Part shown: positions 2,602 to 58,676 of the stretch, piece by piece | Layout of the letters: every line of letters begins with the position of its first letter | Position numbering within the stretch: position 1 is the stretch's first letter | Source of the DNA: Bugulina stolonifera | Lineage: Eukaryota > Bryozoa > Gymnolaemata > Cheilostomatida > Bugulidae | Length of the DNA: 64,000 nucleotides | Reading direction: 5' to 3' | Assembly (NCBI GenBank): GCA_935421135.1 | Contig: OW285196.1 | Location: forward strand, 15,745,001 to 15,809,000 | Made by a program: the position numbers and the translations under genes | Notes under the pieces: model-generated | What the model was told of the DNA's origin: nothing | The model's input: the letters and a program-made list of their open reading frames with translations, nothing else | Database searches by the model: none

Positions 2602-2604
2602 TAG

Positions 2605-2632: not shown

Positions 2633-2669
2633 AACTATTTAGTCTACACAACTGTTGTTGTATTAACAG

Positions 2670-2902
2670 GGTCAGCTGAATACGTCTGTGCTTTCCAATG
2701 CTATGATGACTGCACTGGACCTGGAGATCATCAATGTTTAGGCTGTCCAAGAGGTGCTACAGATTGTAGGAAATGTAAGAACTTTCTACAAGGCTCCAGA
2801 TGTGTATACAAATGCAACGGAGAGTTTTATATGAAACAGAATGGAAGTGAACAGATCTGTGCTGACTGTCACTCGGAATGTGTAGATGGATGCACTGGAC
2901 CG
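2670..2902 (+). CDS. Exon: furin-like cysteine-rich domain, part 1
   Basis: Acceptor TATTAACAG and donor CCG|GTGAGT bound the exon; phase 1 in, phase 0 out. It carries about 14 cysteines in the furin-like/growth-factor-receptor pattern: CYDDCTGPGDHQCLGC, CRKCKNF, CVYKC, CADCHSEC, CVDGCTGP. The last motif is the usual lead into GDTDC, which opens the next exon. It lies directly after the LINE (ATT)n tail, so that insertion abuts the branch and acceptor region. Confidence 0.85.
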
Positions 2903-12325: not shown

Positions 12326-12922
12326 CTACTGGTAGATTATGTTAGAAAACTCATGTTGAACAAGTTTCACCAGGTGAAGGCTGTCAGTCAGTGATTTAGC
12401 CTCTGTATTCACTTTTATACACTCAGCATGTCTGCTGCACTTCTCTAGAAGCTGGCTACTCATATTTAGAGCTTTCTGTGCATGCTCTAAGGCTATTGTA
12501 GTGTTACTGAGATGTAGTAGTAGTGTTGCTATGGTGATGTGAAGCTTGGCCAATGAGGTTGTAGTATCTACATCTCCAGAAATTTGTTCATACAGACAGA
12601 GAGCCGTGTGGAGCCAAGTCCAGCATCTGCCCCATGACCCTGTATTTAGATGACAGATCCCCATTAGGTGGTAGTTCTCAGCTAGAATGAGTTCGTTACT
12701 TGTTGGTGTTTGTTTCACAGAGAGAAGTAGAAACTGTTGAGCTCTTCTGTAGTCTTTGAGATCCACACAGACTTGTGCTATTCTGTTTAGAACTACAGCA
12801 GTTAGATGGGAGTTCTTTGTAGGTGTCACCAGTGCCTGTGTGTAGAGACTGGATGCATTTTTATGTTGATGTACAACTCTGTACAGATTACCAATGGAAG
12901 TATAGGTATTGATCAAGCCAGC

Positions 12923-14242
12923 TAGGCTAGATGTATCACTATGACTCTCATACACAGCTTTCCACATCTCTAAAGCCTTCATGTGATACACCAGTGACTG
13001 TGTATAAACTCCCATCTTCTCATACACATGGCCTATATTGTTGTAACTGGTAGCTATATCAGAGTGATTAGCCTGTTCACCATACACAGCTTTCCACATC
13101 TCTAAAGCCTTCATGTGATACTCCAGTGACTGTGTATAATCTCCCATCTTCTCATACACATGGCCTATATTGTTGTAACTGGTAGCTATATCAGAGTGAA
13201 TAGTCTGTTCACCATACACAGCTTTCCTCATCTCTAAAGCCTTCATGTAATACTCCAGTGACTGTGTATAATATCCCATCTCATTGTACACATTGCCTAT
13301 ATTGTTGTAACTGCTAGCTATATCAGAGTGATTAGTCTGTTCACCATGCACAGCTTTCATCATCTCTAAAGCCTTCATGTAATACTCCAGTGACTGTGTA
13401 TAATCTCCCATCTCATTGTACACACTGCCTATATTGTAGTAACTGGTAGGTATATGAGAGTGATTAGTCTGTTCACCATGCACAGCTTTCCATATCTCTA
13501 AAGCCATCATGTGATACACCAGTGACTGTGTATAATCTCCCATCTGATTATACACATGACCTATATTGTTGTAACTGCTAGCTATATCAGAGTGATTAGT
13601 CTGTTCACCATACACAGCTTTCCTCATCTCTAAAGCCTTCATGTGATACACCAGTGAATGTGTATAATCTCCCATTTCATTGTACGCACTGCCTATATTG
13701 TTGTAACTGGTAGCTATATCAGAGTGATTAGTCTGTTCACCATACATAGCTTTCCTCATCTCTAAAGCCTTCATGTGATACACCAGTGACTGTGTATAAT
13801 CACCCATATTATTGTACACACTGCCTATATTGTTGTAACTGTCAGCTATATCAGAGTGATTAGTCTGTTCACCACACACAGCTTTCCTCATCTCTAAAGC
13901 CTTCATGTGATACACCAGTGACTGTGTATAATCTCCCATCTCATTGTACACACCGCCTATATTGTTGTAACTGGTAGCTATATCAGAGTGATTACACTGT
14001 TCACCATACACAGATTTCCTCATCTCTAAAGCCTTCATGTAATACACCAGTGACTGTGTATAATCTCCCATCTCATTGTACACATTGCCTATATTGTTGT
14101 AACTGGTAGCTATAGCAGAGTGATTAGTCTGTTCACCATACACAGCTTTCCTCATCTCTAAAGCCTTCATGTGATACACCAGTGACTGTGTATAATCTCC
14201 CATCTCATTGTACACATTTCCTATATTGTTGTAACTGGTAGC
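12923..14242 (-). repeat. Coding 132 bp tandem array, 10 TPR units (copy 1)
   Basis: Ten head-to-tail 132 bp units encode 44-residue repeats, SYNNIG-VYN-MGDYTQSL then YHMKALEM-KAVYGEQTNHS. Units differ by only a few residues. This is the TPR_12/kinesin-light-chain style of TPR. Homologous arrays have 8 units (35710-36765) and 4 units (53143-53670). Confidence 0.9.
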
Positions 14243-16170
14243 TACATGTATACTATGTATAACACCTCCATGTAACCCCCTCTTCTCACCAAAGTTTTTG
14301 TTGCTACTCGTCAGCTCCAATATCTCCAGAGAGTCTTTATAACATTCTAATGCAGATGAATTCTGTGTGAGGTTGGACAATGTGCAACCCAGTGTATTAT
14401 AAGCACTTCCTGTAATCTCTATGCAGCCCATTACAGAACCAGACAATTCCTGTTCACTCAATAGTTTCTGTTTAACATACTCTGCTAGTGACTGCTGTAC
14501 CTCCAGTCCTAACAATTCCTTTAGCAGTAAGATAACCCGATTCATCACTGACTTGGCTTTCTTGTATTTTGCTTGCTGAGTCATACACACTGCAACCATA
14601 ATCTTCCTCTGTACTATCTCTAGAGAGTGTGTATCATATGCAGCAAGCCAGGTCAGGTACTCTATGCCTATAGTGTACTCCTCAGCATGGTAAAGGATAG
14701 CAAAGCATATCTCTAGATACTTCTTCTCTGTAGGGTCAGACTTGTCTGTGTGATACTCTGCTCTGATTACCTCGATAAACTTTACACAGTCTCTAACTTG
14801 CTCTTTACCTGCTACTCGGTAGAGATGATTCAGAGCTTCCTGGTATTCTCCGACAAACGCCAGGAGTTCTGCTTTCACCATGAAATCTGTATTAGAAATC
14901 CTGAAACCCTTCATTACAGACTGGAGTTTGGTTACTATGTTAGAAGATGAGTTTTTAAACTCGTGACTGTTGGCTCTTTGTAAAGCAGCGGTGACTGCCT
15001 GTTTGATTGGTACGAGTATACACCCCAGTATAATAAATACATTCTGTGGTACGTGGTACCTGTCTGACACTGAGCTGGTATCTTTAGCTGCAGTGTAGAT
15101 GGAGAGTAGCTCTGACTGTCCTTCCATACAAATGTAAGCAGTGGTACGGATGTATATAGATAGAGCTAGCATGATGTGCATGTATCTGAGATCTTCTGCA
15201 GTTAAAATATTTAACTGGTGCATCTTGGTGTAGGTATCCCATGAATATTCAGAGCCTCAAGGTCAACGATGTGGTAAGGTCATGAGCAAGTATGGTAGGG
15301 TACCTGAATATGTCCATTTTCACTTTCAAATCTGTGTTTTTGGTTTTTGCAAATTCGAACTCAGGTAGAAAATTGTATTCTTGTGTCTTTCGATAACAAA
15401 TTTAGTCTCTTTCTTGTTGCAAACAAGTTTCCTTTAACAACACCTTCCTCATATTCCAACATTTGATTGAGAAAGGAAGAATACAGATTGCTCCCTTCCT
15501 TGTGAGAGTAAAGGAGAGCGGAGGAAGATACGAGGTCAGCGAGGTCATGAACTCTCTTGCTGTCAGTTGGTGACATCACTTCCTTCTTGTACAACTCCAT
15601 CAACTGATCAACAGTCAGAGTCAGACTCTGATTACTGTCTGGGTGACCAGTTGGTATGTGACCAGCTCTCCTGGAGATTCCATCTATTCTGTACCCCACA
15701 GTAGGAGTAATAGACACTGATGTAACAGTACGCTTGATACCAATGGTTTTCAATGGTGTTTCACCAAGGTTACCTATTCTAAAGTAACTATCAACTGCCA
15801 ACTTCTGGAAATATTCTCTCTCAGAGTCATTCTCGACAATGAAAGCATATTCTAAGTCAGAGTAGGGAGTTGCCTCTCCTCTGGCTACAGAACCTAAATC
15901 AATTACAGCAAAGGAACAAGGAGGGACATGGCCATCTTTCTGAAGGGCTTCCACACATGAGTCAATCACAGAACGACTGTAGCTAATGAAACCATCTGTA
16001 CACTCTTTACTCAATGAGAAGACCTGTTGAGAGAAATTAACAGCCTGGTTCAAGTTTGATTCACTGAACGTGTCCTCAGTGTTGAGAGCTTCTTGTTCAA
16101 CTCTGATTCTATCAAAGTCAAGTCTTGTACCTTCTCTGTATTCTCTGAGCAGCTCTTTGTGTCGATTGGT

Positions 16171-16259
16171 CAACAGCTGGTGTTCCTCAAAGCTGATTTG
16201 AGGAACACCAGCTGTTGTTCTACCTCGTGGCTATAGTAGGTTCTATAGCCACGAGGTAG
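16171..16259. repeat. Two adjacent perfect hairpins replacing coding sequence
   Basis: Hairpin 1 has 21 bp arms 16171-16191 and 16197-16217 with a 5 nt loop. Hairpin 2 has 17 bp arms 16220-16236 and 16243-16259 with a 6 nt loop. In copies 2 and 3 the outer arms are present but the sequence between them is ordinary coding sequence. Confidence 0.95.
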
Positions 16260-33127: not shown

Positions 33128-33537
33128 GTCTGTCTGCCTGCCGATTTGCCTGCCTGAGCGCCCACCCGCATGTTAAATAATATAGAAATGTTGAAAGAAG
33201 TAACTCATTATCATGACACCAAAATTAAGATGCTTTCACATATTATGCATTCAACTTTAATCTTTGTGTTTTGTATTTTTATGCTTGGGGATGATCGCAT
33301 GTTCATATACTTTGTGAAAAAATATTGCTGCAAATTTCCTGCAGGTGTGCCATAGATGTGACTGTTAAGGCTCTGTTACAAGAGAGGCCTTGATCAATAT
33401 CCAGCCAATAACCAAAGCTGATTTCAATTAAATTATACAATTGGGGTCATTTTATCCAATATTAACCAATCACAACAGCGCTCCGTGACGCCAGAGAGTG
33501 CGAAGAGCAACACCTTGGTCTTTGCATACCCGAACAA
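33128..33537 (+). other. Spacer end with CCAAT motifs before the orphan tail exon
   Basis: Aligns with 49550-50768 apart from the solo LTR there. Three CCAAT motifs (about 33403-33470) sit just before the orphan tail exon. In the tail frame the sequence is open back to about 33422 but has no ATG. The join to tail-exon homology falls near 33538, so this marks the tandem-duplication junction. Confidence 0.5.
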
Positions 33538-34102
33538 GCAGCGTAAACATGAATCCCAGAGTTCTTTCTCACAGTTGAAGCAGTGTAAGCGTGAATCCCA
33601 GAGTTCTGTTTACCCCGCTAAAGAATCTGTATACCCAAAAACTGGAAAGTCTGGTTATTCCCTTCCACCCAGACAGCAAGGAGTTTATGACAGTCTGTAC
33701 TATGAGACTGGGAATGTCTATGATCAGGTAACTGATTACTATGGTCAATACTCTACTGTAGACTACTCAGACATAACACCACTACCACCACTACCACCAC
33801 AAGCACCACAACCACCACTACCACCACTACCACCACTACCACCACTACCACCACTACCACCACTACCACCACGACCATCACCGCCACCACCACCACCGCC
33901 TAGTCAGCACAAACCAATAACCAGTGACAACACTTCTAGGCAGCCCTTGGTGCATCGACCACTACCCAACCCAGTTTCTAATCGACTTTTACCAAAACCT
34001 AGTCAGCCGACCTCCAGCTCTGGTCCTGTATCAGCTGCAAACACTTCACTCAACTCACAGAAGAACACAAAGAAACACAAACTACCGAAACAGTCAAAAT
34101 AA
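33485..34102 (+). pseudogene. Orphan receptor tail exon, copy 2
   Basis: Homology to the receptor tail starts near 33538 (QRKHESQSSF, matching codons about 61 onward of the terminal exon) and runs to the same TAA. The frame is intact, keeps the tyrosine cluster (VYDSLYYETGNVYDQV, VDYSDI), and has a longer proline run. The membrane exon, the acceptor and the first 60 tail codons are missing. The open frame upstream begins with GTG and has no in-frame ATG. It is therefore a truncated exon copy unless an unseen upstream exon splices in. AATAAA follows at 34276. Confidence 0.7.
33778..33897 (+). repeat. Coding CCACCACTA repeat (polyproline expansion)
   Basis: A 9 bp unit encodes PPL and has expanded compared with 10828-10875 in the receptor gene and 51008-51085 in copy 3. 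The proline runs differ in length and in the arginine positions that matter for SH3 binding. Confidence 0.85.
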
Positions 34103-35121: not shown

Positions 35122-38100
35122 CTAATAAGTAAACTCATGTTGAACAAGTTTAACCAGATGAAGGCTGTCAGTCAGTGATTTAGCCTCTGTATTCACTTTC
35201 ATACACTCCGCATTTCTGCTGCACTTCTCTAGCAGCTTGTTACTCATATCTAGAGCTTTCTGTGAATGCTCTAAGGCTATGGTAGTGTTACTGAGATGTA
35301 GTAGTAGTGTTGCTATGGTGATGTGAAGCTTGGCCAATGAGATTGTAGTATCTACATCTCCAGGAGTACTATGTTCATACAGACAGAGAGCCGAGTAGAG
35401 CCAAGTCCAGCATCTGCTCCATGATCCTGTATTTAGATGACAGATTCCCATTAGATGGTAGTTCTTAGCTAGAATGAGTTTGTTACTTGTTGGTGCTTGT
35501 TTCCTAGCAAGAAGTAGAAACTGTTGAGCTCTTCTGTAGTCATTGAGATCTACACAGACATGTGCTATACTGTTTAGAACTACAGCAGTTAGATGGGAGT
35601 CCTTTGTAGGTGTCACCAGTGCCTGTGTGTAGAGACTGAATGCCGCCTTATGTTGACACGTATTTCTGTACAGATTACCAATCTTTGCATAAGTATTGGC
35701 CAAGTAAACTCTGCTAGATCTATCACTATTACTCTCAGACACAGCTTTCATCATCTCTAAAGCCTTCATGTTATACACCATTGACTGTGTATAATCTCCC
35801 ATCTTATTGTACACATCGCCTATATTGTTGTAACTGATAGCTATATCAGAGTGATTAGTCTGTTCACCATACACAGCTTTCCTCATCTCTAAAGCCTTCA
35901 TGTAATACACCAGTGACTGTGTATAATCTCCCATCTGATTGTACAAAATGCCTATATTGTTGTAACTGGTAGCTATAGTAGAGTGATTAGTCTGTTCACC
36001 ATACACAGCTTTCATCATCTCTAAAGCCTTCATGTGATACACCAGTGACTGTGTATATTCTCCCTTCTCATTGTACACATCGCCTATATTGTTGTAACTG
36101 GTAGCTATAGTAGAGTGATTAGCCTGTTCACCATACACTGCTTTCATCATCTCTAAAGCCTTCATGTAATACACCAGTGACTGTGTATATTCTCCCATCT
36201 GATTGTACACATTGGCTATATTGTTGTAACTGGTAGCTATAGTAGAGTGATTAGTCTGTTCACCATACACTGCTTTCATCATCTCTAAAGCCTTCATGTA
36301 ATACACCAGTGACTGTGTATATTCTCCCATCTGATTGTACACATTGGCTATATTGTTGTAACTACCAGCTATATCAGAGTGATTAGTCTGTTCACCATAC
36401 ACAGCTTTCATCATCTCTAAAGCCTTCATGTGATACACCAGTGACTGTGTATATTCTCCCTTCTCATTGTACACATCGCCTATATTGTTGTAACTGGTAG
36501 CTATAGTAGAGTGATTAGCCTGTTCACCATACACTGCTTTCATCATCTCTAAAGCCTTCATGTGATACACCAGTGACTGTGTATAATCTCCCTTCCTATT
36601 GTACACATCGCCTATATTGTTGTAACTGATAGCTATATCAGAGTGATTAGTCTGTTCACCATACACTGCTTTGATCATCTCTAAAGCCTTCATGCAATAC
36701 TTCAGTGACTGTGTATAATCTCCCATATTATTGTACACATTCCCTATATTGTTACAGCTGCTAGCTAGCATACTATGAATAACACTTCTATGTAGCCCAC
36801 TCTCCTCAACAAAGCTCTTATTGTTACTCATCAGCTTCCATATCTCCAGGGAGTCTTTATAACATTCTAATGCAGATGTATGCTGTGTGAGGTTGTTCAA
36901 TATGCTACCCAGTCTATCATAAGCCTCTGCTGTAATCTCTATACAGCCCATTACATTATAAGATAACTCCTGTTCACTCAATAGTTTCTGTTTAACATAC
37001 TTTGGTAGTGACTGCTGTACCTCCAGTCTTAAGTATTCCTTTAGCTGTAGAATAACCTGATTCATCACTGACTTGGCTTGCTTGTATTCTGCTAGCTGAG
37101 TCATACACACTGCAACCATAATCTTCCTCTGTACTATCTCTAGAGAGTGTGTATCATATGCAGCAAGCCAGGTCAGGTACTCTATGCCTATAGTGTACTC
37201 CTCAGCATGGTAAAGGATAGCAAAGCATATCTCTAGATACTTCTTCTCTGTAGGGTCAGACTTGTCTGTGTGATACTCTGCTCTGATTACTTCGATAAAC
37301 TTTACACAGTCTCTAACTTGCTCTTCTCCTGCCACTCTGTAGAGATAATTCAGAGCTTCCTGGTATTCTCCGGCAAACACCAGGAGTTCTGCTTTCACCA
37401 TGAAATCTGTATTAGAAATCCTGAAACCCTTCATTACAGACTGGAGTTTGGTTACTATGTTAGAAGATGAGTTTTTAAACTCGTGACTGTTGGCTCTTTG
37501 TAAAGCAGCGGTGACTGCCTGTTTGATTGGTACGAGTATACACCCCAGTATAATGAATATATTCTGTGGTACGTGGTACCTGTCTGACACTGAGCTGGTA
37601 TCTTTAGCTGCAGTGTAGATGGAGAGTAGCTCTGACTGTCCTCCCATACAAAGGTAAGAAGTGCTACGAATGTATATAGATAAAGCTAGCATTATGTGCA
37701 TGTATCTGAGATCTTCAGCAGTTAAAATATTTAACTGGTGCATCTTGGTATAGGTATCCCATGAATATTCAGAGTTCAAGTTCAACGATATGGTAAGGTC
37801 ATGAGCAAGTATGGTAGGGTACCTGAATATGTCTATTTTCACTTTCAAATCTGTATTTTTGGTTTTTGCAAATTTGAACTCGGGTAGAAAATTGTATTTT
37901 TTCATGTCTTTCGATAACAAATTTAATCGCTTTCTTGTTGCAAACAAGTTTCCTTTAACAACAAATTCCTCATATTTCAATCTTTGATTGAGAAATGTGG
38001 AATACAGACTGTCCCCTTCCCTGTGAGAGTAAAGGAGAGCTGAAGTACAGAGAAGGTCACCAAGGTCAGGCTCCTCACTCTGTGACATCACTTCCTTCTT

Positions 38101-38886
38101 GTACAACTCCATCAACTGATCAACAGTCAGAGTCAGATTCTGATTACTGTCTGGGTGACCAGTTGGTATGTGACCAGCTCTCCTGGAAATTCCATCTATT
38201 CTGTACCCCACAGTAGGAGTACTAGACACTGATGTTACAGTACGCTTGATACCAATGGTTTTTAATGGTGTCTCACCAAGGTTACTTATTCTAAAGTAAC
38301 TATCAACTGCTAGCTTCTGGAAATATTCTCTATCAGAGTCGTTCTCGACAATGAAAGCATATTCTAAGTCAGAGTAGGGAGTTGCCTCTCCTCTAGCTAC
38401 TGAACCTAAGCCAATCACAGCAAAGGAACAAGGAGGGACATGACCATCATTCTGAAGAACGTCCACGCATGATTGAATCACAGAACGACTGTAGCTAATG
38501 AAACCGTCTGTGCACTTTTTACTCAATGAAAAGACTTGCTGGGAGAAATTAACAGCCTGGTTCAAGTTTGATTCACTAAACATGTCCTCAGTGTCGAGAG
38601 CTTCTTGTTCAACTCTCACACTATCAAAGTCCAGTCTTGTATCCTCTCTGTAGTCTATGAGCAGTTCTTTGTGTTGATTGGTCAACAGTTGATGTTCCTC
38701 AAAGCTGAGGGGATGGTTATCTCCATACCAACTGCTCTCTATATCATACACCTGTCTGAGTCTCTCCTCCGTAGATCTTATCGCCACAAGGTAGTTTGCT
38801 CCACCATGAGCCTGCAGCGAATGATAATATATCAACATATTAAATCTTTGTGATGTTGTAGCTTCACATTTCATGTGGTTAGGGAA
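35122..38886 (-). CDS. Nucleotidyltransferase-TPR protein, copy 2 (large terminal exon)
   Basis: An intact 1254-codon exon; counting from the Met at 38874 it is 1250 residues. Residues about 100-235 form a GlnD/DUF294-like nucleotidyltransferase: GLGSVARGEATPYSDLEYAF has the hG[GS]...DxE signature (G157, S158, D169, E171). Residues about 380-700 are helical and TPR-like. Eight identical-register 44-residue TPRs follow (about 704-1055), then further TPR-like helices (SLYTQALVTPTK, VCVDLNDYRRAQQF). No signal peptide or membrane segment, so probably cytoplasmic. Nucleotidyl transfer is inferred from the motif only; the substrate is unknown. The start at 38886 assumes a 35 nt intron. If that is wrong, translation could begin at 38874. 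Confidence 0.85.
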   Translation of the reverse strand, partial: FPNHMKCEATTSQRFNMLIYYHSLQAHGGANYLVAIRSTEERLRQVYDIESSWYGDNHPLSFEEHQLLTNQHKELLIDYREDTRLDFDSVRVEQEALDTEDMFSESNLNQAVNFSQQVFSLSKKCTDGFISYSRSVIQSCVDVLQNDGHVPPCSFAVIGLGSVARGEATPYSDLEYAFIVENDSDREYFQKLAVDSYFRISNLGETPLKTIGIKRTVTSVSSTPTVGYRIDGISRRAGHIPTGHPDSNQNLTLTVDQLMELYKKEVMSQSEEPDLGDLLCTSALLYSHREGDSLYSTFLNQRLKYEEFVVKGNLFATRKRLNLLSKDMKKYNFLPEFKFAKTKNTDLKVKIDIFRYPTILAHDLTISLNLNSEYSWDTYTKMHQLNILTAEDLRYMHIMLALSIYIRSTSYLCMGGQSELLSIYTAAKDTSSVSDRYHVPQNIFIILGCILVPIKQAVTAALQRANSHEFKNSSSNIVTKLQSVMKGFRISNTDFMVKAELLVFAGEYQEALNYLYRVAGEEQVRDCVKFIEVIRAEYHTDKSDPTEKKYLEICFAILYHAEEYTIGIEYLTWLAAYDTHSLEIVQRKIMVAVCMTQLAEYKQAKSVMNQVILQLKEYLRLEVQQSLPKYVKQKLLSEQELSYNVMGCIEITAEAYDRLGSILNNLTQHTSALECYKDSLEIWKLMSNNKSFVEESGLHRSVIHSMLASSCNNIGNVYNNMGDYTQSLKYCMKALEMIKAVYGEQTNHSDIAISYNNIGDVYNRKGDYTQSLVYHMKALEMMKAVYGEQANHSTIATSYNNIGDVYNEKGEYTQSLVYHMKALEMMKAVYGEQTNHSDIAGSYNNIANVYNQMGEYTQSLVYYMKALEMMKAVYGEQTNHSTIATSYNNIANVYNQMGEYTQSLVYYMKALEMMKAVYGEQANHSTIATSYNNIGDVYNEKGEYTQSLVYHMKALEMMKAVYGEQTNHSTIATSYNNIGILYNQMGDYTQSLVYYMKALEMRKAVYGEQTNHSDIAISYNNIGDVYNKMGDYTQSMVYNMKALEMMKAVSESNSDRSSRVYLANTYAKIGNLYRNTCQHKAAFSLYTQALVTPTKDSHLTAVVLNSIAHVCVDLNDYRRAQQFLLLARKQAPTSNKLILAKNYHLMGICHLNTGSWSRCWTWLYSALCLYEHSTPGDVDTTISLAKLHITIATLLLHLSNTTIALEHSQKALDMSNKLLEKCSRNAECMKVNTEAKSLTDSLHLVKLVQHEFTY
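35710..36765 (-). repeat. Coding 132 bp tandem array, 8 TPR units (copy 2)
   Basis: Eight 132 bp units encode SYNNIGDVYN-KG-YTQSL-type TPRs. Neighbouring units share private variants (for example NNIANVYNQMGEYTQSL twice in a row), as expected of unequal exchange within the array. Confidence 0.9.
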
Positions 38887-38921
38887 CTAATATCCCTTGA
38901 GTGCACATCGAGAAATTTCAC

Positions 38922-39035
38922 CTTCTCAAAGTCACAAATCACAATTTGATACAGACCTAACAGTATTGTGTCTATATTGACATATAATCCTTTTAGTGAC
39001 AGCTTAGATGGGTCAACCCACTTCATGGTGTAACC
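38922..39035 (-). CDS. Exon 3 of nucleotidyltransferase-TPR gene, copy 2
   Basis: Acceptor GAGCACAG, donor GAGAAG|GTGAAA; phase 0 both ends, 38 codons (GYTMKWVDPSKLSLKG, NIDTILLGLYQIVICDFEK). A longer frame to 39059 with its own Met reads through what I take as intron. Phase agreement with both neighbours supports the exon. Confidence 0.6.
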
Positions 39036-39349
39036 CTGTGCTCTAATATCATATAACATTATGACCAGTAGTCAACCTGTGACTAGTGCACCATGTAGGG
39101 CCTTAGCTCATCAGATACATACATGTATAATTTATTCATCAGTCAACAACAGAACATTGTACTGAGACATTTCTGACCAGCCTGGTCTGTGACAAAGGTT
39201 GGGTTGCAGAGAATCCTGTCAGCTACACCAATAACCACTAGAGCTACATTCTATTTCTTCATGACGCAGCTTTTGGGAGACAAACCACTAAAGTATCCTA
39301 CAGTGACACAAACGGTGAAGTAAAATCATACAGAAAGTATTCTACTTAC

Positions 39350-39448
39350 TCTAAGATAATCTGCCCAGTGTCCACTTTCTCTTGCCTTGTTGTGATACTC
39401 TTTAACAAGATTCTCTAGCTCTAGTTCAGTGATCTCTAGTTCTTGTTT
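39350..39448 (-). CDS. Exon 2 of nucleotidyltransferase-TPR gene, copy 2
   Basis: Acceptor ATCATAG, donor AGA|GTAAGT; phase 0, 33 codons. It encodes KQELEITELELENLVKEY and ESGHWADYLR, an amphipathic helix likely to form a coiled segment. An alternative acceptor 7 nt further in (CAAG) would fit a different upstream mini-exon at 39573-39594 that starts with ATG; I prefer the version joined to the exon at 44692. Confidence 0.6.
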
Positions 39449-41914
39449 CTATGATATATAGAAGAACAGTCTAAGAGTCCATTTCTGTCAGCATTTAGTG
39501 GAATAAATTTGTGCTAGGGGTTATAGTGTTGTAACACGACAAGTCTTGGTTATTCATCATGTCATACCTTACCTGCCTGACCCTGATAAATCATAAAAGT
39601 GAGCTTAAATGTTCATCCATGAAAGTAGTATTAGTAGTATAGTATAAGTATAGTAGTAAAATAGTATAGTCAGTTCAGATCCTAAAGATGTCATTCCTGA
39701 ACCTCGTCAGTCAGTCTGCCCTCAAAATCTGAGTTTTTACAGGCAATGGCGCATCACCTGTCCTATTTTAACCTTTCTGCTGTCGCAACTCGAACCAATG
39801 CACAAAGCCTTAGCCTTTCGACTGAAGCTTTTATCATTTTCACAAAAAAATGGTGATTGCTCAATCCCCATTGCTTGGGATTTTATGTCACATGGTCACC
39901 AAGCCATTGGCAAGAAGTTCTGTTACAAGCACTTTGTGCTTGGTCTACGGAGCAAGTTTCCCTACAAAATTTGCTCGCTTCGCTTGTGTGAAATAATGGC
40001 TTGTGTTCATGTGCTGTGGTCATATATGCGCATGACCTCTGTTGGTGCCAACATGCTACAGTGACCTCATGAGGAGTTGTGTTTCCTTACATCAGGGAGA
40101 CAACTCCAAGTATATAGCCCAAATTCCAACACCAATATAGTAATATAGTAGGTACCCACCCCGCCCTGGGTCATGGTTGAGGGCCTAAAGCTACGGACCC
40201 ACCTCGGCAGCGATGTTGGAGGGCCCGGTCCCAAGGTCCTAGCACCACCTGGAGCTGAAATCCTCACCGGCAGCATTACGATATATATTAATCACAGGAC
40301 CAGGAGAATAATCAATGCTGGCATAGCTTGAGTTCCAGCATGCATCCAGTGGGTGGGTGGAGTACCCTCCTCGCCCTGGGTCGAGTCCGAGGGCCTAAGG
40401 CTAAGAACCCGCCCCGGCAGCGATGTCGGTGGACCCGGTCCCAAGATCCTAGTACCACTCGGAGCCGAGATCCTGACTAGCAGCATTGCAACATATATAT
40501 GAATTGTCCTAATTTTTTACCCCAAATCTGACTGGAGGATGGCAGACCGTTAACCGTAGACCGTTAACCGTAGACCGTTAACCGTAGACCGTTAACCGTA
40601 GACCGTTTCGTCTTTTGTTATATGACTTTACAATCACTTGGTGACTCTCCTTCATTATTGAGCAATGACCTTTGTTTGACTTCAAGTGTAGCAACTCAGA
40701 GAATAGTGGGCATGCTGGTGAATCTGGGGCTACGTCTGCACAGTGCTGTCAAAGCAATAGCTCTCTTCCTCTCCAATAATTCCTTTGACAGAACAAGCAA
40801 CAGGAAGAGTTGGTTGCTCAAAGCTCTGGATGCTATCTTGGAAGGTTGTGATGGCTGATACTTAGAGAGAAAACCTCTATCAGTTTGCTGCTAGTTGTTG
40901 ATTTGCTTCAGCAACACTGACCCCACTTTCCCACCACCATTGTGTGTAATGGCCCCGAGATGAGCACCTCTGCATCACGTGATGAAACACAACCTCCGTT
41001 CTAATGGGTGCATCACCGGCTCACTGCCTACTCAGCAGAGAGTCCACCTCAATGGTAGAAGACCAGGTGACAGAACCATTAATGGCCCATAGCGCGATAT
41101 TCGTCAACGAAAAAGTAGAGTAACATGGGATAGTTACTGCATTTATCTGCACTGACTATACTACTCCGGAGGTACATGTACATGTACATACTCTAGAAGA
41201 TACCTATCATACTTATTCACAGTGTCTGGGTGTAACTAAACAGCAAATATATAATATAAAACAGAGCACTTACTGGGGGAGTAATCGACATTGGTTAGAC
41301 ATGTATAAAAATTAAAATCACCTAAATTATTGTGTAAATTGAAAATAGTTAACCTACTGTAACTCAAGTAATTAAGGGCTCAACTGTGTTTTAATTACAA
41401 TACATACTTTCTATAGATATACACTCCTCCTGTGATGGAAGAATAACTACAAGTAATATGTTCAGGTATATTCTTCATTTAGACACCCAGTTATATAGTG
41501 AGGTAGTTATATTTCCGTAAGTGTTTTACATGAAGAATATCCCTCTGTTACATAGGGAATAGTAGAGACTGCATATACTAGGTATGGGTAATCTGTGGAC
41601 CTCTGTTACATAGAGAGTAGTGGCTACTCACTAACTCCAGCTCTTCCAGGTTGGCAGCACTATGTTAGTGCCCCATAATTACAAGAGGTGTAGCTTACAT
41701 GGATAAGAGAGGATAACTCCACACTCAATACTGATCTAGCAGAGGGGAGGCAACTCCATATTAGGAACACGTAATACATGTATATACATACAGTGTATAC
41801 AAGGTAAATTGTACGTAGTATGCAGTTATATTATGGTAGGGTAGTTAGTTAATTTCGTGGGTGTCATACATGGAGAATATACCGAAGAAGCTTTTCTGAG
41901 CAACAGGAAATGGG
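39449..41914. other. Putative first intron of copy 2, left part
   Basis: Contains the two-block tandem repeat (40067-40490, each about 225 bp), about 4.6 units of the 14 bp CCGTTAACCGTAGA repeat (40545-40609), and the empty mariner site (TA at 41189-41190). No coding sequence recognised; open frames at 40067-40486 are repeat-derived. Confidence 0.6.
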
Positions 41915-42346
41915 CAGAGTTGGGTCCAAGTCTTGACTTGAAGGTCAACAAGTCAAGCTATTTCTAAAATCTTGGAGGCAAGTCAAGTCCAAGTTAAGTC
42001 AGTGCTGCCTCAGGTCAAGCCAAGTCAGCCGTCATGCAAGTCACAAATCAAGGCAAGTCGAAGTCGACTTGCCTACTTACAAGCCGAAATGCAAGTCAAG
42101 TGGGAAACAACATTAAAAATTTTACATTTCCCAAAACGTCACTTCTTTGCTTTTAGTAGACATTCCAATGCTTGAAAATCATGCCAACATGTAGCTGGGC
42201 ATGTATGTTGTACAATTATGGCAACTAGCCTACATATTATGTAGTAATATTGGCACTACGGTTGAGACTGGTCACATAGTATTATATATTAGTAATGGAG
42301 ATACAGTGTTACATAACATATAAACAGCACATGGTACAGTATAGAG

Positions 42347-43888
42347 CAGGGCTGTCCCACTTGCTCATTTTTGGTAGCCCACTTGAGCTTTGTGTAAAGT
42401 TGGCATTCCTAGTATTTTATTTGGTCAAGGAGTAAGAGAGAAGGAGGCTCGTTTATGAAAACCTGCATATATGTTACAATGGGCTTCCGGTGTTCGATGT
42501 GCGCCTCGGGTACTTGGTAAAGTCTGAAGAAAAGATGATGAATATTTTTAAAAAAGTAAAATTTACACATGAACTAAAATAAAATATAAGCAATGTCAAC
42601 TATTGGTAGCACTCTAATGAACAGGATGACTATAATACACACTACATATTTCAATGGGATACGATAAATATTGGCAAGTAAATTCGCCAGATTTGAAGAA
42701 AATTGCGTATTTCAACATAAAATGACACTTTTTGTAAATACCAACATGCTCAATAAAATAAGCAAAAATAATATTAACAGATTTAAACTTGCTGCAATTG
42801 GTAAAGTGCAAATCCAAATTTAAACTTTGCTCCTTCATAACAAAAAAACCGTACAAACGCTGAAATCGCGGTTAAAATGAGCTAATTTGTGCAACACGCT
42901 TCTCTACCATCAGGACTCCATATACTTAATTTGATTGATGATGCATAGTTCAGATACCATTTTAGTTGGTAGGCTAGTTCATGGGCCCTACAAAATGCCC
43001 ACACTATATGAAAATAGTGCTCAAACTATATATAGGCTATGTCAATAAACAATGATGTTTATCTCTCCATAGAAATGATTTTTATTGAATGCTATAACTG
43101 TGACGTGTTAAGCGCCAGAGCCGTGCACATGTGCATTGCTTTTATACCTGTTTAGCAATGAGGAAGCCCATTACGATTCAACGGGGTTATCTACCCGCTT
43201 AATGCCAGTGACTCATGTGCTCATATTTTAAGCCGAGGAGCACATCGAACACAAAATTCTCATGGGCGAGCCTCCTTCTCTCTCTTACTCCTTGGTTTGG
43301 TGTTGCAAATAGGATTAATTTACAACAGGGACCCATTAAATGTGTCTCAAGCAGCATTGAGCTCTGCACCATGCAACATAAATAGAAATTTAAAACGTAA
43401 AGGAGAAAGAATTTGAGATTGCTTAGGCTATTTCAGAAATTGAATTTCAGCCATTTCAGAGATTTACATAAGCTAATTGAGCTGATTAAGTGTCCAATTC
43501 GGGCCACTGGGGAAGCTAGAGGGTTACGGGCTGAACTACTGGGGAAGCTGAAGGGTTACGGGCTGGGCCACTGGGGAAGCTGAAGGGTTACGGGCTGGAC
43601 CACTGGGGAAGCTGAAGGGTTACGGGCTGGGCTACTGGGGAAGCTGTGTAATTAGATAGAGGTTTTGTTTATCACTATTTTTAAATACTGGTAGGTCAAA
43701 TTATATTTTAATGCTGATTTATTTGCTCTTTTGTCTTTTCCTCTGTTGAATGAAGATGCCAATATCAATGATGTCAACCACTTCATTTTATGTCCAACTA
43801 TATTCAATTGAAACTAGAATAAAGTGGCCCATCTCAAGTATGTGAATTCTATATGTGGCCCACTCCAAAAAAAGCTTGGCCAGCCCTC
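42347..43888. mobile_element. hAT-like element (CAGGGCTG ends), copy 2
   Basis: Orthologous insertion to 25500-26695: flanks GTATAGAG (42339-42346) and ATATAGAG (43889-43896). Its left end is rearranged (CAGGGCTGTCCCACTTG), and only about 4.5 units of the 32 bp repeat remain (43503-43646). Confidence 0.8.
42425..43295. mobile_element. 871 bp TIR element, copy 2 only
   Basis: Inverted ends of about 26 bp (CAAGGAGTAAGAGAGAAGG at left; the inverse at right has a 2 nt indel) are flanked by TTTGG on both sides (42420-42424, 43296-43300). Copy 1 has the uninterrupted TTATTTGGAGTTGC. No open frame. The superfamily is not recognised; a 5 bp duplication is unusual. Confidence 0.8.
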
Positions 43889-44691
43889 ATATAGAGTGTC
43901 CACTGGCTAGTCCTGCAATTCCAATCTACATATTTTAGTAATTAACTATTTACTGCACTGTACATCGTTGTATTCACTACTTATACCACACTTACACTAC
44001 ACTTACACTACTTACACTGTATGGACTTGTGAGTAGTCTCACGTATACACAGCCTAGATATTAAATTTGATGTGTATCCTCATAGCAAACCTTGATGTAC
44101 TCTAAATGCTGCTAGTAGCACTGATGTAGTAAAAATAATAAATAGGTAAACAACTGAGACCTCTTTTCCTCCACATTGACTTGGCAGAACCCAAGTCAAA
44201 GTCACAAGTCATTCATGTGTCCAAGTCAAGTCAAGTCACATTGATGTGCAAGTCAAAATCAAGTCAAGTCAGCATGTTGGCAAATCCAATTCAAGTCGAC
44301 TTGTGATTTGACTTGACTTGGCAAGTCAAGTCAAATCTATGACTTGGACCCAGCTCTGGAGATGGCTGTTGAGTGGAAGAGATCACCTTCCACGACATGA
44401 GTGAGTGGGATTGGACTGTGTTACCCTAAGGTTAACCCCTACACCACTATTATCATCTACCTTATGCATTGTTGTTAACACATCAATGTCCACCATTTGG
44501 ATTGGCAATTACTGGATATATCGTGGAGGCTGCCAGGATAGAAATACCAAGAACTATAGAAATGTGAGCCAAACCAACAACTATTGGAATGCAAGCTCAG
44601 TTATGTATACCTAATATATACATGTACATGTACTCACACCTAATATATACATCTACATGTACACCTAAAATATACATGTACATGTACTCAC

Positions 44692-44733
44692 CTGGGTTGG
44701 AGATTCTATACTTCCTTGTGAATGTTCTGCCAT
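44692..44733 (-). CDS. Candidate first coding exon, copy 2
   Basis: ATG plus 13 codons (MAEHSQGSIESPTQ) to donor CAG|GTGAGT, phase 0. It is present before each of the three TPR genes at a variable distance. If joined to 39350-39448 the protein is about 1339 residues. The intron would hold the (ACTTG)n, hAT and 871 bp elements. Confidence 0.45.
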
Positions 44734-50470: not shown

Positions 50471-50715
50471 ATATTATGCATTCAACTTTAATCTTTGTGT
50501 TTTGTATTTTTATACTTGGGGATGATCGCATGTTCATATACTTTGTGAAAAAATATTGCTGCAAATTTCCTGCAGGTGTGCCATAGATGTGACTGTTAAG
50601 GCTCTGTTACAAGAGAGGCCTTGATCAATATCCAGCCAATAACCAAAGCTGATTTCAATTAAATTATACAATTGGGGTCATTTTATCCAATATTAACCAA
50701 TCACAACAGCGTTCC

Positions 50716-51309
50716 GTGACGCCAGAGAGTGCGAAGAGCAACACCTTGGTCTTTGCATACCCGAACAAGCAGCGTAAACATGAATCCCAGAGTTCTTTCT
50801 CACAGTTGAAGCAGTGTAAGCGTGAATCCCAGAGTTCTGTTTACCCCGCTAAAGAATCTGTATACCCAAAAACTGGAAAGTCTGGGTATTCCCTTCCACC
50901 CAGACAGCAAGGAGTTTATGACAGTCTGTACTATGAGACTGGGAATGTCTATGATCAGGTAACTGATTACTATGGTCAATACTCTACTGTAGACTACTCA
51001 GACATAACACCACTACCACCACAACCACCACAACCACCACTACCACCACTACCACCACTACCACCACTACCACCACGACCATCACGACCATCACTACCAT
51101 CACTACCCAGTCAGCACAAACCAATAACCAGTGGCAACACTTCTAGGCAGCCCTTGGTGCATCGACCACTACCCAACCCAGTTTCTAATCGACTTTTACC
51201 AAAACCTAGTCAGCCGACCTCCAGCTCTGGTACTGTATCAGGTGCAAACACTTCACTCAACTCACAGAAGAACACAAAGAAACACAAACTACCGAAACAG
51301 TCAAAATAA
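50716..51309 (+). pseudogene. Orphan receptor tail exon, copy 3
   Basis: As at 33485-34102: homology begins near 50769, the frame is intact to TAA, and there is no in-frame ATG, acceptor or membrane exon. The first half matches copy 2 (LYYET, VDYSDI), while the second half (SLPSLPSQHKPITSG, GTVSGA) matches the receptor gene itself. The switch lies within the proline run. AATAAA at 51474-51479. Confidence 0.7.
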
Positions 51310-52545: not shown

Positions 52546-55500
52546 CTACTGGTAGATTATGTTAGAAAACTCATGTTGAACAAGTTTCACCAGGTGAAGG
52601 CTGTCAGTCAGTGATTTAGCCGCTGTATTCACTTTTATACACTCAGCATGTCTGCTGCACTTCTCTAGAAGCTGGCTACTCATATTTAGAGCTTTCTGTG
52701 CATGCTCTAAGGCTATTGTAGTGTTACTGAGATGTAGTAGTAGTGTTGCTATGGTGATGTGAAGCTTGGCCAATGAGGTTGTAGTATCTACAGCTCCAGA
52801 AATTTGTTCATACAGACAGAGAGCCGTGTGGAGCCAAGTCCAGCATCTGCCCCATGACCCTGTATTTAGATGACAGATCCCCATTAGGTGGTAGTTCTCA
52901 GCTAGAATGAGTTCGTTACTTGTTGGTGTTTGTTTCACAGAGAGAAGTAGAAACTGTTGAGCTCTTCTGTAGTCTTTGAGATCCACACAGACTTGTGCTA
53001 TTCTGTTTAGAACTACAGCAGTTAGATGGGAGTTCTTTGTAGGTGTCACCAGTGCCTGTGTGTAGAGACTGGATGCCTTTTTATGTTGATGTACAACTCT
53101 GTACAGATTACCAATGGAAGTATAGGTATTGATCAAGCCAGCTAGGCTAGATGTATCACTATGACTCTCATACACAGCTTTCCACATCTCTAAAGCCTTC
53201 ATGTGATACACCAGTGACTGTGTATAAACTCCCATCTTCTCATACACATGGCCTGTATTGTTGTAACTGGTAGCTATATCAGAGTGATTAGCCTGTTCAC
53301 CATACACAGCTTTCCACATCTCTAAAGCCTTCATGTGATACTCCAGTGACTGTGTATAATCTCCCATCTTCTCATACACATGGCCTATATTGTTGTAACT
53401 GGTAGCTATATCAGAGTGAATAGTCTGTTCACCATACACAGCTTTCCTCATCTCTAAAGCCTTCATGTGATACACCAGTGACTGTGTATAATCTCCCATC
53501 TTATTGTACACACTGCCTATATTGTTGTAACTGCTAGCTATATCAGAGTGATTAGTCTGTTCACCATACACAGCTTTCATCATCTCTAAAGCCTTCATGT
53601 GATACACCAGTGACTGTGTATAATCTCCCATCTCATTGTACACATTTCCTATATTGTTGTAACTGGTAGCTACATGTATACTATGTATAACACCTCCATG
53701 TAACCCCCTCTTCTCACCAAAGTTTTTGTTGCTACTCGTCAGCTCCAATATCTCCAGAGAGTCTTTATAACATTTTAATGCAGATGAATTCTGTGTGAGG
53801 TCGGACAATGTGCAACCCAGTGTATTATAAGCACTTCCTGTAATCTCTATGCAGCCCATTACAGAACCAGACAATTCCTGTTTACTCAATAGTTTCTGTT
53901 TAACATACTCTGGTAGAGACTGCTGTACATCTAGTCCTAAGTATTCCTTTATCTGTAGGATAACCTGATTCATCACTGACTTGGCTTGCTTGTATTTTGC
54001 TAGCCGATTCATACACAGTGCAACCATAATCTTCCTATGTACTATCTCTAGAGGGTGTCTATCATATGTAATAAGCCAGGTTAGGTAATCTATAGCCATA
54101 GTGTATTCCTCAGCATGGTAAAGGATAGCAAAGCACATATCTAGATACTTCTTCTCTGTGGGGTCAGACTTGTCTGTGTGATACTCTGCTCTGATTACCT
54201 TTATAAACTTTACACAGTCTCCAACTTTCTCTTCTCCAGCCACTCTGTAGAGATAATTCAGAGCTTCCTGGTATTCTCCGACAAACGCCAGGAGTTCTGC
54301 TTTCACCATGAAATCTGTATTAGAAATCCTGAAACCCTTCATTACAGACTGGAGTTTAGTTACTATGTTAGAAGATGAGTTCGTAAACTCATGACTTTTG
54401 GCTCTTTGTAAAGCAGCGGTGACTGCCTGTTTGATTGGTACGAGTATACACCCCAGTATAATGAATATATTCTGTGGTACGTGGTACCTGTCTGACACTG
54501 AGCTGGTATCTTTAGCTGCAGTGTAGATGGAGAGTAGCTCTGACTGTCCCCCCATACAAATGTAAGCAGTGGTACGAATATATATAGATAGAGCTAGCAT
54601 GATGTGCATGTATCTGATATCTTCTGCTGTTAAAATATTTAACTGGTGCATCTTGGTATAGGTATCCCATGAATATTCAGAGTTCAAGTTCAACGATATG
54701 GTAAGGTCATGAGCAAGTATGGTAGGGTACCTGAATATGTCTATTTTCACTTTCAAATCTGTATTTTTGGTTTTTGCAAATTTGAACTCGGGTAGAAAAT
54801 TGTATTTTTTCATGTCTTTCGATAACAAATTTAATCGCTTTCTTGTTGCAAACAAGTTTCCTTTAACAACAAATTCCTCATATTTCAATCTTTGATTGAG
54901 AAATGTGGAATACAGACTGTCCCCTTCCCTGTGAGAGTAAAGGAGAGCTGAAGTACAGAGAAGGTCACCAAGGTCAGGCTCCTCACTCTGTGACATCACT
55001 TCCTTCTTGTACAACTCCATCAACTGATCAACAGTCAGAGTCAGATTCTGATTACTGTCTGGGTGACCAGTTGGTATGTGACCAGCTCTCCTGGAAATTC
55101 CATCTATTCTGTACCCCACAGTAGGAGTACTAGACACTGATGTTACAGTACGCTTGATACCAATGGTTTTTAATGGTGTCTCACCAAGGTTACTTATTCT
55201 AAAGTAACTATCAACTGCTAGCTTCTGGAAATATTCTCTATCAGAGTCGTTCTCGACAATGAAAGCATATTCTAAGTCAGAGTAGGGAGTTGCCTCTCCT
55301 CTAGCTACTGAACCTAAGCCAATCACAGCAAAGGAACAAGGAGGGACATGACCATCATTCTGAAGAACGTCCACGCATGATTGAATCACAGAACGACTGT
55401 AGCTAATGAAACCGTCTGTGCACTTTTTACTCAATGAAAAGACTTGCTGGGAGAAATTAACAGCCTGGTTCAAGTTTGATTCACTAAACATGTCCTCAGT

Positions 55501-55794
55501 GTCGAGAGCTTCTTGTTCAACTCTCACACTATCAAAGTCCAGTCTTGTATCCTCTCTGTAGTCTATGAGCAGTTCTTTGTGTTGATTGGTCAACAGTTGA
55601 TGTTCCTCAAAGCTGAGGGGATGGTTATCTCCATACCAACTGCTCTCTATATCATACACCTGTCTGAGTCTCTCCTCCGTAGATCTTATCGCCACAAGGT
55701 AGTTTGCTCCACCATGAGCCTGCAGCGAATGATAATATATCAACATATTAAATCTTTGTGATGTTGTAGCTTCACATTTCATGCGGTTAGGGAA
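52546..55794 (-). CDS. Nucleotidyltransferase-TPR protein, copy 3 (large terminal exon)
   Basis: An intact exon of 1082 codons; 1078 residues from the Met at 55782. The N-terminal half, with GLGSVARGEATPYSDLEYAF (G157, S158, D169, E171), is almost identical to copy 2. From about 54620 downward it follows copy 1, with extra changes of its own (EEKVGDCVKFIKV, CMNRLAKYKQ). Only four 44-residue TPRs remain. The C-terminus ends EFSNIIYQ as in copy 1, not EFTY as in copy 2. If TPR number sets partner range, this paralogue differs functionally from copy 2; that is inference. Confidence 0.85.
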   Translation of the reverse strand, partial: FPNRMKCEATTSQRFNMLIYYHSLQAHGGANYLVAIRSTEERLRQVYDIESSWYGDNHPLSFEEHQLLTNQHKELLIDYREDTRLDFDSVRVEQEALDTEDMFSESNLNQAVNFSQQVFSLSKKCTDGFISYSRSVIQSCVDVLQNDGHVPPCSFAVIGLGSVARGEATPYSDLEYAFIVENDSDREYFQKLAVDSYFRISNLGETPLKTIGIKRTVTSVSSTPTVGYRIDGISRRAGHIPTGHPDSNQNLTLTVDQLMELYKKEVMSQSEEPDLGDLLCTSALLYSHREGDSLYSTFLNQRLKYEEFVVKGNLFATRKRLNLLSKDMKKYNFLPEFKFAKTKNTDLKVKIDIFRYPTILAHDLTISLNLNSEYSWDTYTKMHQLNILTAEDIRYMHIMLALSIYIRTTAYICMGGQSELLSIYTAAKDTSSVSDRYHVPQNIFIILGCILVPIKQAVTAALQRAKSHEFTNSSSNIVTKLQSVMKGFRISNTDFMVKAELLAFVGEYQEALNYLYRVAGEEKVGDCVKFIKVIRAEYHTDKSDPTEKKYLDMCFAILYHAEEYTMAIDYLTWLITYDRHPLEIVHRKIMVALCMNRLAKYKQAKSVMNQVILQIKEYLGLDVQQSLPEYVKQKLLSKQELSGSVMGCIEITGSAYNTLGCTLSDLTQNSSALKCYKDSLEILELTSSNKNFGEKRGLHGGVIHSIHVATSYNNIGNVYNEMGDYTQSLVYHMKALEMMKAVYGEQTNHSDIASSYNNIGSVYNKMGDYTQSLVYHMKALEMRKAVYGEQTIHSDIATSYNNIGHVYEKMGDYTQSLEYHMKALEMWKAVYGEQANHSDIATSYNNTGHVYEKMGVYTQSLVYHMKALEMWKAVYESHSDTSSLAGLINTYTSIGNLYRVVHQHKKASSLYTQALVTPTKNSHLTAVVLNRIAQVCVDLKDYRRAQQFLLLSVKQTPTSNELILAENYHLMGICHLNTGSWGRCWTWLHTALCLYEQISGAVDTTTSLAKLHITIATLLLHLSNTTIALEHAQKALNMSSQLLEKCSRHAECIKVNTAAKSLTDSLHLVKLVQHEFSNIIYQ
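53143..53670 (-). repeat. Coding 132 bp tandem array, 4 TPR units (copy 3)
   Basis: Four units; the last two carry HVYEKMGDYTQSL and HVYEKMGVYTQSL like units 9 and 10 of copy 1. The copy 3 array therefore looks like the copy 1 array with six middle units lost. Confidence 0.9.
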
Positions 55795-56257: not shown

Positions 56258-56356
56258 TCTAAGATAATCTGCCCAGTGTCCACTTTCTCTTGCCTTGTTG
56301 TGATACTCTTTAACAAGATTCTCTAGCTCTAGTTCAGTGATCTCTAGTTCTTGTTT
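56258..56356 (-). CDS. Exon 2 of nucleotidyltransferase-TPR gene, copy 3
   Basis: Same borders and phase as 39350-39448; encodes KQELEITELELENLVKEY and onward. Confidence 0.6.
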
Positions 56357-57449: not shown

Positions 57450-57945
57450 AGACCGTTAACCGTAGACCGTTAACCGTAGACCGTTAACCGTAGACCGTTA
57501 ACCGTAGACCGTTAACCGTAGACCGTTAACCGTAGACCGTTGACCGTAGACCGTTGACCGTAAACCGTAGACCGTTAACCGTAGACCGTTAACCGTAGAC
57601 CGTTAACCGTAGACCGTTAACCGTAGACCGTTAACCGTAGACCGTTAACCGTAGACCGTTAACCGTAGACCGTTAACCGTAGACCGTTAACCGTAGACCG
57701 TTAACCGTAGACCGTTAACCGTAGACCGTTAACCGTAGACCGTTAACCGTAGACCGTTAACCGTAGACCGTTAACCGTAGACCGTTAACCGTAGACCGTT
57801 AACCGTAGACCGTTAACCGTAGACCGTTAACCGTAGACCGTTAACCGTAGACCGTTAACCGTAGACCGTTAACCGTAGACCGTTAACCGTAGACCGTTAA
57901 CCGTAGACCGTTAACCGTAGACCGTTAACCGTAGACCGTTAACCG
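57450..57945. repeat. 14 bp satellite-like array, about 35 units
   Basis: CCGTTAACCGTAGA repeated almost without change. Copies 1 and 2 have about 2.5 and 4.6 units. It runs straight into the 32 bp array, with the intervening 2.9 kb of copy 2 missing. Confidence 0.95.
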
Positions 57946-58676
57946 AACTACTGGGGAAGCTGAAGGGTTACGGGCTGGGCCACTGGGGAAGCTGAAGGGT
58001 TACGGGCTGGACCACTGGGGAAGCTGAAGGGTTACGGGCTGAACTACTGGGGAAGCTGGAGGGTTACGGGCTGGGCTACTGGGGAAGCTGGAAGGTTACG
58101 GGCTGGACCACTGGGGAAGCTGAAGGGTTACGGGCTGAACTACTGGGGAAGCTGGAGGGTTACGGGCTGGGCTACTGGGGAAGCTGGAGGGTTACGGGCT
58201 GAACTACTGGGGAAGCTGAAGGGTTACGGGCTGAACCACTGGAGAAGCTGAAGGGTTACGGGCTGGACCACTTGGGAAGCTGAAGGGTTACGGGCTGAAC
58301 TACTGGGGAAGCTGGAGGGTTACGGGCTGGGCTACTGGGGAAGCTGGAAGGTTACGGGCTGGACCACTGGGGAAGCTGAAGGGTTACGGGCTGAACTACT
58401 GGGGAAGCTGGAGGGTTACGGGCTGGGCTACTGGGGAAGCTGGAGGGTTACGGGCTGAACTACTGGGGAAGCTGAAGGGTTACGGGCTGAACCACTGGAG
58501 AAGCTGAAGGGTTACGGGCTGGGCTACTGGGGAAGCTGGAAGGTTACGGGCTGGACCACTGGGGAAGCTGAAGGTTACGGGCTGAACTACTGGGGAAGCT
58601 GGAGGGTTACGGGCTGGGCTACTGGGGAAGCTGGAGGGTTACGGGTTGGACTACTGGAGAAGCTGGAGGGTTACGC
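57946..58676. repeat. 32 bp minisatellite, about 23 units (copy 3)
   Basis: Same unit as 25811-26094, with higher-order patterning of GGGCTACTGG, GACCACTGG and GAACTACTGG variants in repeating blocks. Confidence 0.95.

Follow-up and report, generated by a model that had tools for sequence, protein, structure and literature searches.

DUF294 nucleotidyltransferase–TPR genes of the bryozoan Bugulina stolonifera: a likely family of protein-tagging enzymes

What is a nucleotidyltransferase doing in front of an array of near-identical tetratricopeptide repeats (TPRs) in a bryozoan, and why do neighbouring copies of the gene differ in repeat number? These questions are raised by a 64,000-nucleotide stretch of the Bugulina stolonifera genome (assembly GCA_935421135.1, contig OW285196.1, positions 15,745,001 to 15,809,000 of the forward strand; here the window), which carries three such genes, referred to as copies A, B and C. 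Based on copy B, the DUF294 nucleotidyltransferase–TPR gene likely encodes a protein-tagging enzyme, an AMPylase with the fold of DrrA and of the glutamine synthetase adenylyltransferase (GS-ATase), which would place a nucleotide onto proteins held by its TPRs. Modelled structure and conserved residues make this the probable function, and below we weigh it against four others.

Gene model and enzyme module of copy B

Where does the gene begin and end? Copy B lies in a minus-strand open frame of 1254 codons between stops, at 35122-38886, carrying the motif GSVARGEATPYSDLEYAF. Residue numbers used here count from the start of this frame, so that D169 and E171 of the first-pass annotation are D173 and E175. 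The features are as follows.

35122..38811, minus: main exon of copy B with nucleotidyltransferase, helical domain, TPR array and stop (open frame, CAG acceptor, homologue junction)
39350..39448, minus: upstream coding exon, 33 codons long (KQELEITELELENLVKEYHNKARESGHWADYLR), which a phase-0 intron separates from the main exon (donor GTAAGT, acceptor AG; same junction in Watersipora proteins P0005 and P0008)
38305..38490, minus: Pfam DUF294 (PF03445) match, residues 133-194 (31.1 bits, cut-off 21, E 2.6e-7)
38362..38406, minus: active-site motif G161-S-x10-D173-L-E175 (in 40/40 aligned sequences and 49/49 genomic loci)
38194..38196, minus: candidate third catalytic carboxylate, D231, in GYRIDG (conservation)
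37477..37950, minus: predicted helical domain after the nucleotidyltransferase, DUF294_C/HEPN-like (model residues 290-447)
36787..37476, minus: helical-repeat linker ahead of the TPR array (helical in the model, residues 454-672)
35739..36767, minus: 8 TPR units of 132 bp each (7.8 copies, 92% matches)

The exon junction joins GHWADYLR, at the GTAAGT donor, to AHGGANYL, which follows the CAG acceptor from 38811, and the Watersipora proteins P0005 (RDYLQAHGIANF) and P0008 (KHYLQAHGLANY) run continuously across it; the upstream-exon structure is kept in copies A and C. The Met at 38874, from which residues were first counted, is thus intronic, since the main exon begins only at 38811 and the phase-0 exon precedes it. 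As this upstream exon has no Met and an in-frame stop stands immediately before its acceptor, there should be one or more additional exons farther upstream, the one with the start codon among them; this first exon was not found, and nothing found so far carries the gene as far as 44733, the extent first given to it. The Pfam scan of the copy B protein lists TPR_12 in 11 stretches of the C-terminal half. PF10335 (DUF294_C) is not among the families listed; relatives P0036 and P0074 pass it.

What kind of nucleotidyltransferase is it? CBS-DUF294 proteins and GlnD uridylyltransferases carry a DUF294-type nucleotidyltransferase in Pfam, and a likeness to GlnD, the PII-uridylyltransferase, had been proposed from the motif. 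The DUF294 call itself stands, with the Pfam match well above its cut-off and the nucleotidyltransferase fold present in the predicted structure. The GlnD likeness has been superseded: the predicted fold of the module matches DrrA and GS-ATase, and model residues 290-447 align with the helical domains of DrrA and of HEPN proteins, giving the nucleotidyltransferase plus helical domain typical of these enzymes. Its residues follow the GS-ATase/DrrA-type motif, G-x11-[DE]-x-[DE] with a third acid, as a passage of PMC8097203 gives it; D231 would be the third metal ligand. We rejected nitrogen sensing in the manner of GlnD: CBS, HD and ACT domains are not listed in the Pfam scan of copy B, and the NCBIfam GlnD models score 12.0 and 10.4 bits against cut-offs of 799 and 631. 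The GlnE family is likewise not listed at E <= 1, and there is a single module, not two. NCBIfam MntA reaches 16.9 bits against a cut-off of 60, and a defence-system library returned for copy B just TPR models and weak candidate-family matches at 15.1-16.6 bits.

Could the module instead make second messengers, as a cGAS-like enzyme or CD-NTase whose TPRs, on sensing a ligand, would trigger the synthesis of cyclic or linear oligonucleotides? Mab21 and OAS families are not listed in the Pfam scan of copy B at E <= 1. The fold tables shown contain no cGAS or OAS chains, which alone is no exclusion. We regard such a synthase as very unlikely.

Some points weigh against an AMP transferase. Identity to DrrA and GS-ATase is just 11-16%. 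SidM_N (PF20879) scores 17.0 bits for copy B against a cut-off of 27, with the relatives scanned reaching 26.3 (P0109). The second acid is Glu in copy B and Asp in DrrA. Finally, the N-terminal domain of GS-ATase, which removes AMP, matches as well as the adenylylating C-terminal domain, so the fold cannot tell a writer from an eraser. With a deadenylylase as one of the three best fold matches, AMP removal is, by the model, the closest chemical rival to AMP transfer: the protein would then be a TPR-guided deAMPylase, or a phosphorolytic remover of nucleoside monophosphates, undoing tags on host proteins such as those left by intracellular bacteria. We consider this improbable, and take AMP transfer as the more plausible chemistry.

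Is the active site kept? G161, S162, P170, S172, D173 and E175 are kept in 40/40 aligned sequences, and D231 in 37/40, as well as in 34/34 of an alignment of bryozoan and further sequences. Among 169 retrieved proteins, 166 follow the strict pattern GS-x10-D-x-E, the exceptions being P0044 (SS for GS), P0071 and P0167. We also searched the B. stolonifera genome (234,951,659 bases in 27 contigs; part of PMC10213821 gives the published assembly as 234,982,697 bp in 30 scaffolds, so a few small pieces are missing). The DUF294 profile found 39 places above cut-off, and the same search of 14 control genomes found matches in four, all bacteria. G-x11-D-x-E is intact in all 39, and the Asp of [IF]DG (D231) in the 38 that are long enough. 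As this search favours intact motifs, a second was made with the helical part alone (55 rows), and it added 12 places: a nucleotidyltransferase lies ahead of 10, each with intact acids, and the other two have none in the fetched stretch and stops inside. The genome thus holds at least 49 nucleotidyltransferase loci (39 + 10), with the acid pair in 49/49 and D231 in 48/48 of those reaching it. Both observations raised earlier as ones that would undo the call, a predicted structure lacking the fold and loss of D173/E175 from most homologues, are thus contradicted. Not all 49 loci are intact genes, which again counts against the enzyme reading: the frame of copy A is disrupted, an internal stop interrupts one of the ten, and some open frames are short.

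The enzyme module is under purifying selection. In 35/35 similar paralogue pairs with an estimate, the ratio of nonsynonymous to synonymous substitution rates (dN/dS) is 0.07-0.35, from Nei-Gojobori counts over at most 300 residues of the module, with pairs that share genes, some of them near saturation and one more saturated. This bears on a fourth possibility, a pseudo-enzyme scaffold, whose domain would be inert or a nucleotide-binding switch, leaving the work to the TPRs. Helical repeats do make up much of the protein, and TPR arrays alone scaffold many complexes; against that stand the constraint on the module and the acids that the loci keep, residues which pseudo-enzymes usually lose. 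A scaffold is in our view distinctly unlikely, and we retain a catalytic, AMP-transferring module as the likely reading.

Relatives in bryozoans, Hydra and intracellular bacteria

Where else is the module found? A search of a 5.8-billion-protein set with residues 60-420 returned 37 proteins at E <= 1e-3, which argues that the copy B frame is no chance product; the named matches are from Bugula, Watersipora, Hydra and Rickettsia. A search from P0035 returned 278 proteins, and the 120 listed include Tisiphia, Rickettsia, Megaira, Jidaibacter, a Holosporaceae bacterium, Bacteroidota and numerous proteins from Hydra, the majority of these Hydra proteins encoded on contigs tens of megabases long. 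In GTDB genomes a scan picked up 19 loci, in a sample that leans towards the groups named here, as the scan patterns were drawn mainly from such bacteria: six (L001-L006) from Rickettsiaceae, another alphaproteobacterium, Cytophagales and Amoebophilaceae, nine from one Parachlamydia bin, one from Chlamydiae, one from a gammaproteobacterium, and two weak matches, one in a proteobacterium and one in a bacterium that is unplaced. Most bacterial groups with relatives are known for life inside eukaryotic cells.

How are these sequences related? In a first tree, with 71 rows, long branches came together; a second, with 75 rows, leaves out L016, L017, P0168 and P0169. In this second tree, all 18 bryozoan rows (Bugula, Watersipora, Bugulina and the window) fall with 18 other rows on one side of a branch with 100/100 support, and all bacterial and Hydra rows lie opposite the bryozoan side. 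The bryozoan clade has one origin in this sample. Parachlamydia, beside the bryozoan side, still carries a long-branch warning in the second tree, which limits what the tree can say about the donor of this clade. The nine chosen Hydra rows are interleaved with Rickettsiales, alike in both trees, and a Hydra grouping is rejected (approximately unbiased test, p-AU 4.9e-9, run after the tree had been seen, on a group named before the first tree). Genes therefore moved more than once between Rickettsiales and the Hydra lineage, in one direction or the other.

Some relatives combine the module with other domains. In P0074, from Hydra vulgaris, a protein kinase domain is fused to the nucleotidyltransferase and DUF294_C module, and this protein stands beside a Tisiphia sequence in the tree (95/70). 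P0108, P0125, P0139 and P0151 join the nucleotidyltransferase module (by homology) to TPRs and NACHT/AAA domains, with HEAT repeats in two; by their domain content these architectures are NOD-like receptor (NLR)-like.

Tandem copies and variation on the concave TPR face

How do the copies in the window differ? The three tandem genes are all on the minus strand, A at 12326-16230, B at 35122-38886 and C at 52546-55794. Besides the features of copy B, the window contains the following parts.

15361..16230, minus: copy A nucleotidyltransferase part, frame broken
12326..15256, minus: separate open frame of copy A, with the helical part and 10 TPR units
52546..55719, minus: copy C main exon, 4 TPR units, nucleotidyltransferase intact
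56258..56356, minus: copy C upstream coding exon

At the DNA level the TPRs form a tandem repeat with a 132-bp unit (92-94% matches), in 9.8 (A), 7.8 (B) and 3.8 (C) copies, which as protein gives 10, 8 and 4 units, the final one degenerate in each; the tandem paralogues with varying repeat number described in the first-pass annotation are therefore confirmed. Compared with B and C, copy A has three frame-changing indels (a 23-bp deletion, a 2-bp and a 1-bp change), its TPR half staying open; it is probably a pseudogene. Copies B and C are 98.5-100% identical from 39740 down to about 37760, falling to 80.5% near 36960, where C becomes 99% identical to A and stays at 98.6-99.5% through the 3' part. 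Copy C, with a B-like 5' part and an A-like 3' part, is thus a mosaic. An assembly artefact is an unlikely source of the tandem copies, as the tzBugStol2.1 assembly was built from 52-fold HiFi reads, according to a passage of PMC10213821. Across the genome, a profile of the window units, run on the 39 DUF294 loci with copy A counted as two frames, finds 1 to 20 units per gene in 28 of 40 frames, and some of the remaining frames (L051, L053) have more divergent TPRs.

Which residues vary between the units? A passage of PMC1261162 places TPR positions 2, 5, 9, 12 and 13 among the most variable and on the concave ligand face; they correspond to unit positions 44, 3, 7, 10 and 11. This concave set was chosen after the per-position table had been seen, used, and then confirmed in that source, whose seven positions also include 33 and 34, dropped here as the 44-residue unit has no clear equivalent. 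In 19 of the 22 window units (the three degenerate units at the array ends being left out), the concave set has a mean entropy of 1.33 bits against 0.31 elsewhere (p 0.001, random five-position sets), and the pooled ratio of nonsynonymous to synonymous differences (pN/pS) is 2.72 against 1.04. Genome-wide, the pooled pN/pS is 1.59 at concave positions and 0.76 elsewhere (14 genes, with 608 pairs of units from the same gene that are at least 85% identical), and amino-acid change is faster at concave positions in 13/13 genes with at least three pairs, the broken copy A included. TPR variation is thus concentrated on the concave binding face, which fits the recognition-type family suggested at first.

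Does this mean positive selection? Several points tell against taking it so far. With genes weighted equally and resampled, the concave pN/pS is 1.21 (95% 0.67-2.45) and the concave-over-other ratio 1.8 (0.97-3.77); the unit pairs are not independent; two unit positions that do not belong to the concave set, 29 and 41, vary as strongly; and TPR binding faces are variable in general, as far as the passage of PMC1261162 goes. Strict positive selection on the concave face is not secure under equal weighting and was set aside as a claim. The family could do ordinary cell work, such as trafficking or control of the cytoskeleton, with TPR variation arising by drift and gene conversion and no recognition of microbes, an account compatible with any of the readings of the module above. 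The TPRs do resemble those of kinesin light chain and LGN, and the resampled ratio is not clearly above 1. The number of nucleotidyltransferase loci, the range in TPR units, the mosaic exchange between copies and the kin in intracellular bacteria all fit a conflict-driven family better, and we hold ordinary cell work to be possible though doubtful.

What lies beside the copies? A proline-rich, tyrosine-rich plus-strand exon is convergent to each and co-duplicated with it (33422-34102, 10406-11089 and 50653-51309), and a further copy (59% identity) lies just before the window. Its standing as a functional partner finds no support: with 150 of 320 candidates scored, the long matches among the 129 listed are the three in the window and the one just before. 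The first ~45 residues of the copy at 33422 match a dispersed genomic repeat. Minisatellites at 57450-58675, beside copy C (a 14-bp unit x36 and a 32-bp unit x23), are much shorter at A and B, and may be recombination sites. At 2543-2995 (plus) a Cys-rich open frame matches Growth factor receptor domain IV with 28.0 bits, just under the 29.5 cut-off.

A putative AMPylase family and its known counterparts

How would an AMP-transferring, TPR-bearing enzyme work? The concave face of the TPR superhelix would hold a peptide or protein, and the DrrA/GS-ATase-type module would modify a hydroxyl of that protein, or of a partner, with a nucleotide, probably AMP; fold and residues suggest ATP as the donor and a protein as the acceptor. 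The role may be to recognise microbes or microbial effectors inside the cell, that is, an immune, antimicrobial one, and unequal crossing-over, by changing the number of TPRs, could alter specificity.

Several known systems resemble this arrangement in part. DrrA/SidM of Legionella pneumophila has guanine nucleotide exchange factor (GEF) and lipid-binding domains where the bryozoan family has a TPR array, and DxD where it has DxE; copy B, 16% identical and below the SidM_N cut-off, belongs to an animal gene family. GS-ATase (GlnE) of E. coli has two modules and acts on glutamine synthetase, to which the bryozoan protein, with one module and a TPR array, has no known link. Similar too are the DUF294-TPR proteins of Rickettsiales, Amoebophilaceae and Hydra, with module and TPRs as in bryozoans and mostly a TPYSDLE motif; they lie across the 100/100 branch, the Hydra copies among those of Rickettsiales. 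The NEX2 expansion of Neochlamydia is also similar: according to part of Domman et al. 2014 (PMC4209131), it comprises 50 proteins, a large lineage-specific family with C-terminal TPRs and in most cases DUF294, labelled putative nucleotidyltransferase, not AMPylase. Copy B has the same order, DUF294 followed by C-terminal TPRs. Unlike the bryozoan family, NEX2 is bacterial, and in the same part of that paper most members have an F-box and ten have OTU; no F-box is listed in the Pfam scan of the copy B protein, which does not include the gene's first exon. Among animals, FICD/HYPE likewise joins TPRs to an AMPylating domain, as a passage of PMC12409994 describes. Its catalytic fold is unrelated, it has a single human gene, and it acts on the endoplasmic reticulum chaperone BiP. 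AMPylases are sorted into the Fic, SelO, GS-ATase and DrrA families, the last two with bacterial sources, in passages of PMC8097203 and PMC12409994. No description of an animal DUF294-TPR family was found in the literature at title and abstract level, where subscription papers are mostly uncovered, and two Bugula database entries are named 'hypothetical protein' and, automatically, 'Protein-PII uridylyltransferase N-te...'. Known, then, are the fold and the domain pairing in bacteria; added here is their occurrence in an animal, as a large family in which the acids are conserved and the TPRs vary.

What would this mean for the animals? Tentatively, and with considerable doubt, we suggest that bryozoans have an AMPylase family, neither Fic nor SelO, of the kind that intracellular bacteria use against their hosts, either gained from such bacteria or of common origin with theirs. 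With about 50 loci and diversified TPR faces, it may serve inside the cell as a recognition repertoire, attaching AMP to invading effectors or to hijacked host proteins, while the Hydra lineage would have repeatedly exchanged such genes with Rickettsiales. If true, animal AMPylation would gain a third catalytic fold, and there might be a new type of receptor inside the cell, one that links TPR recognition directly to the tagging of proteins. It also becomes testable whether animals turn enzymes that they share with endosymbionts into defences, with Hydra, whose copies interleave with those of Rickettsiales, and Bugulina as usable systems.

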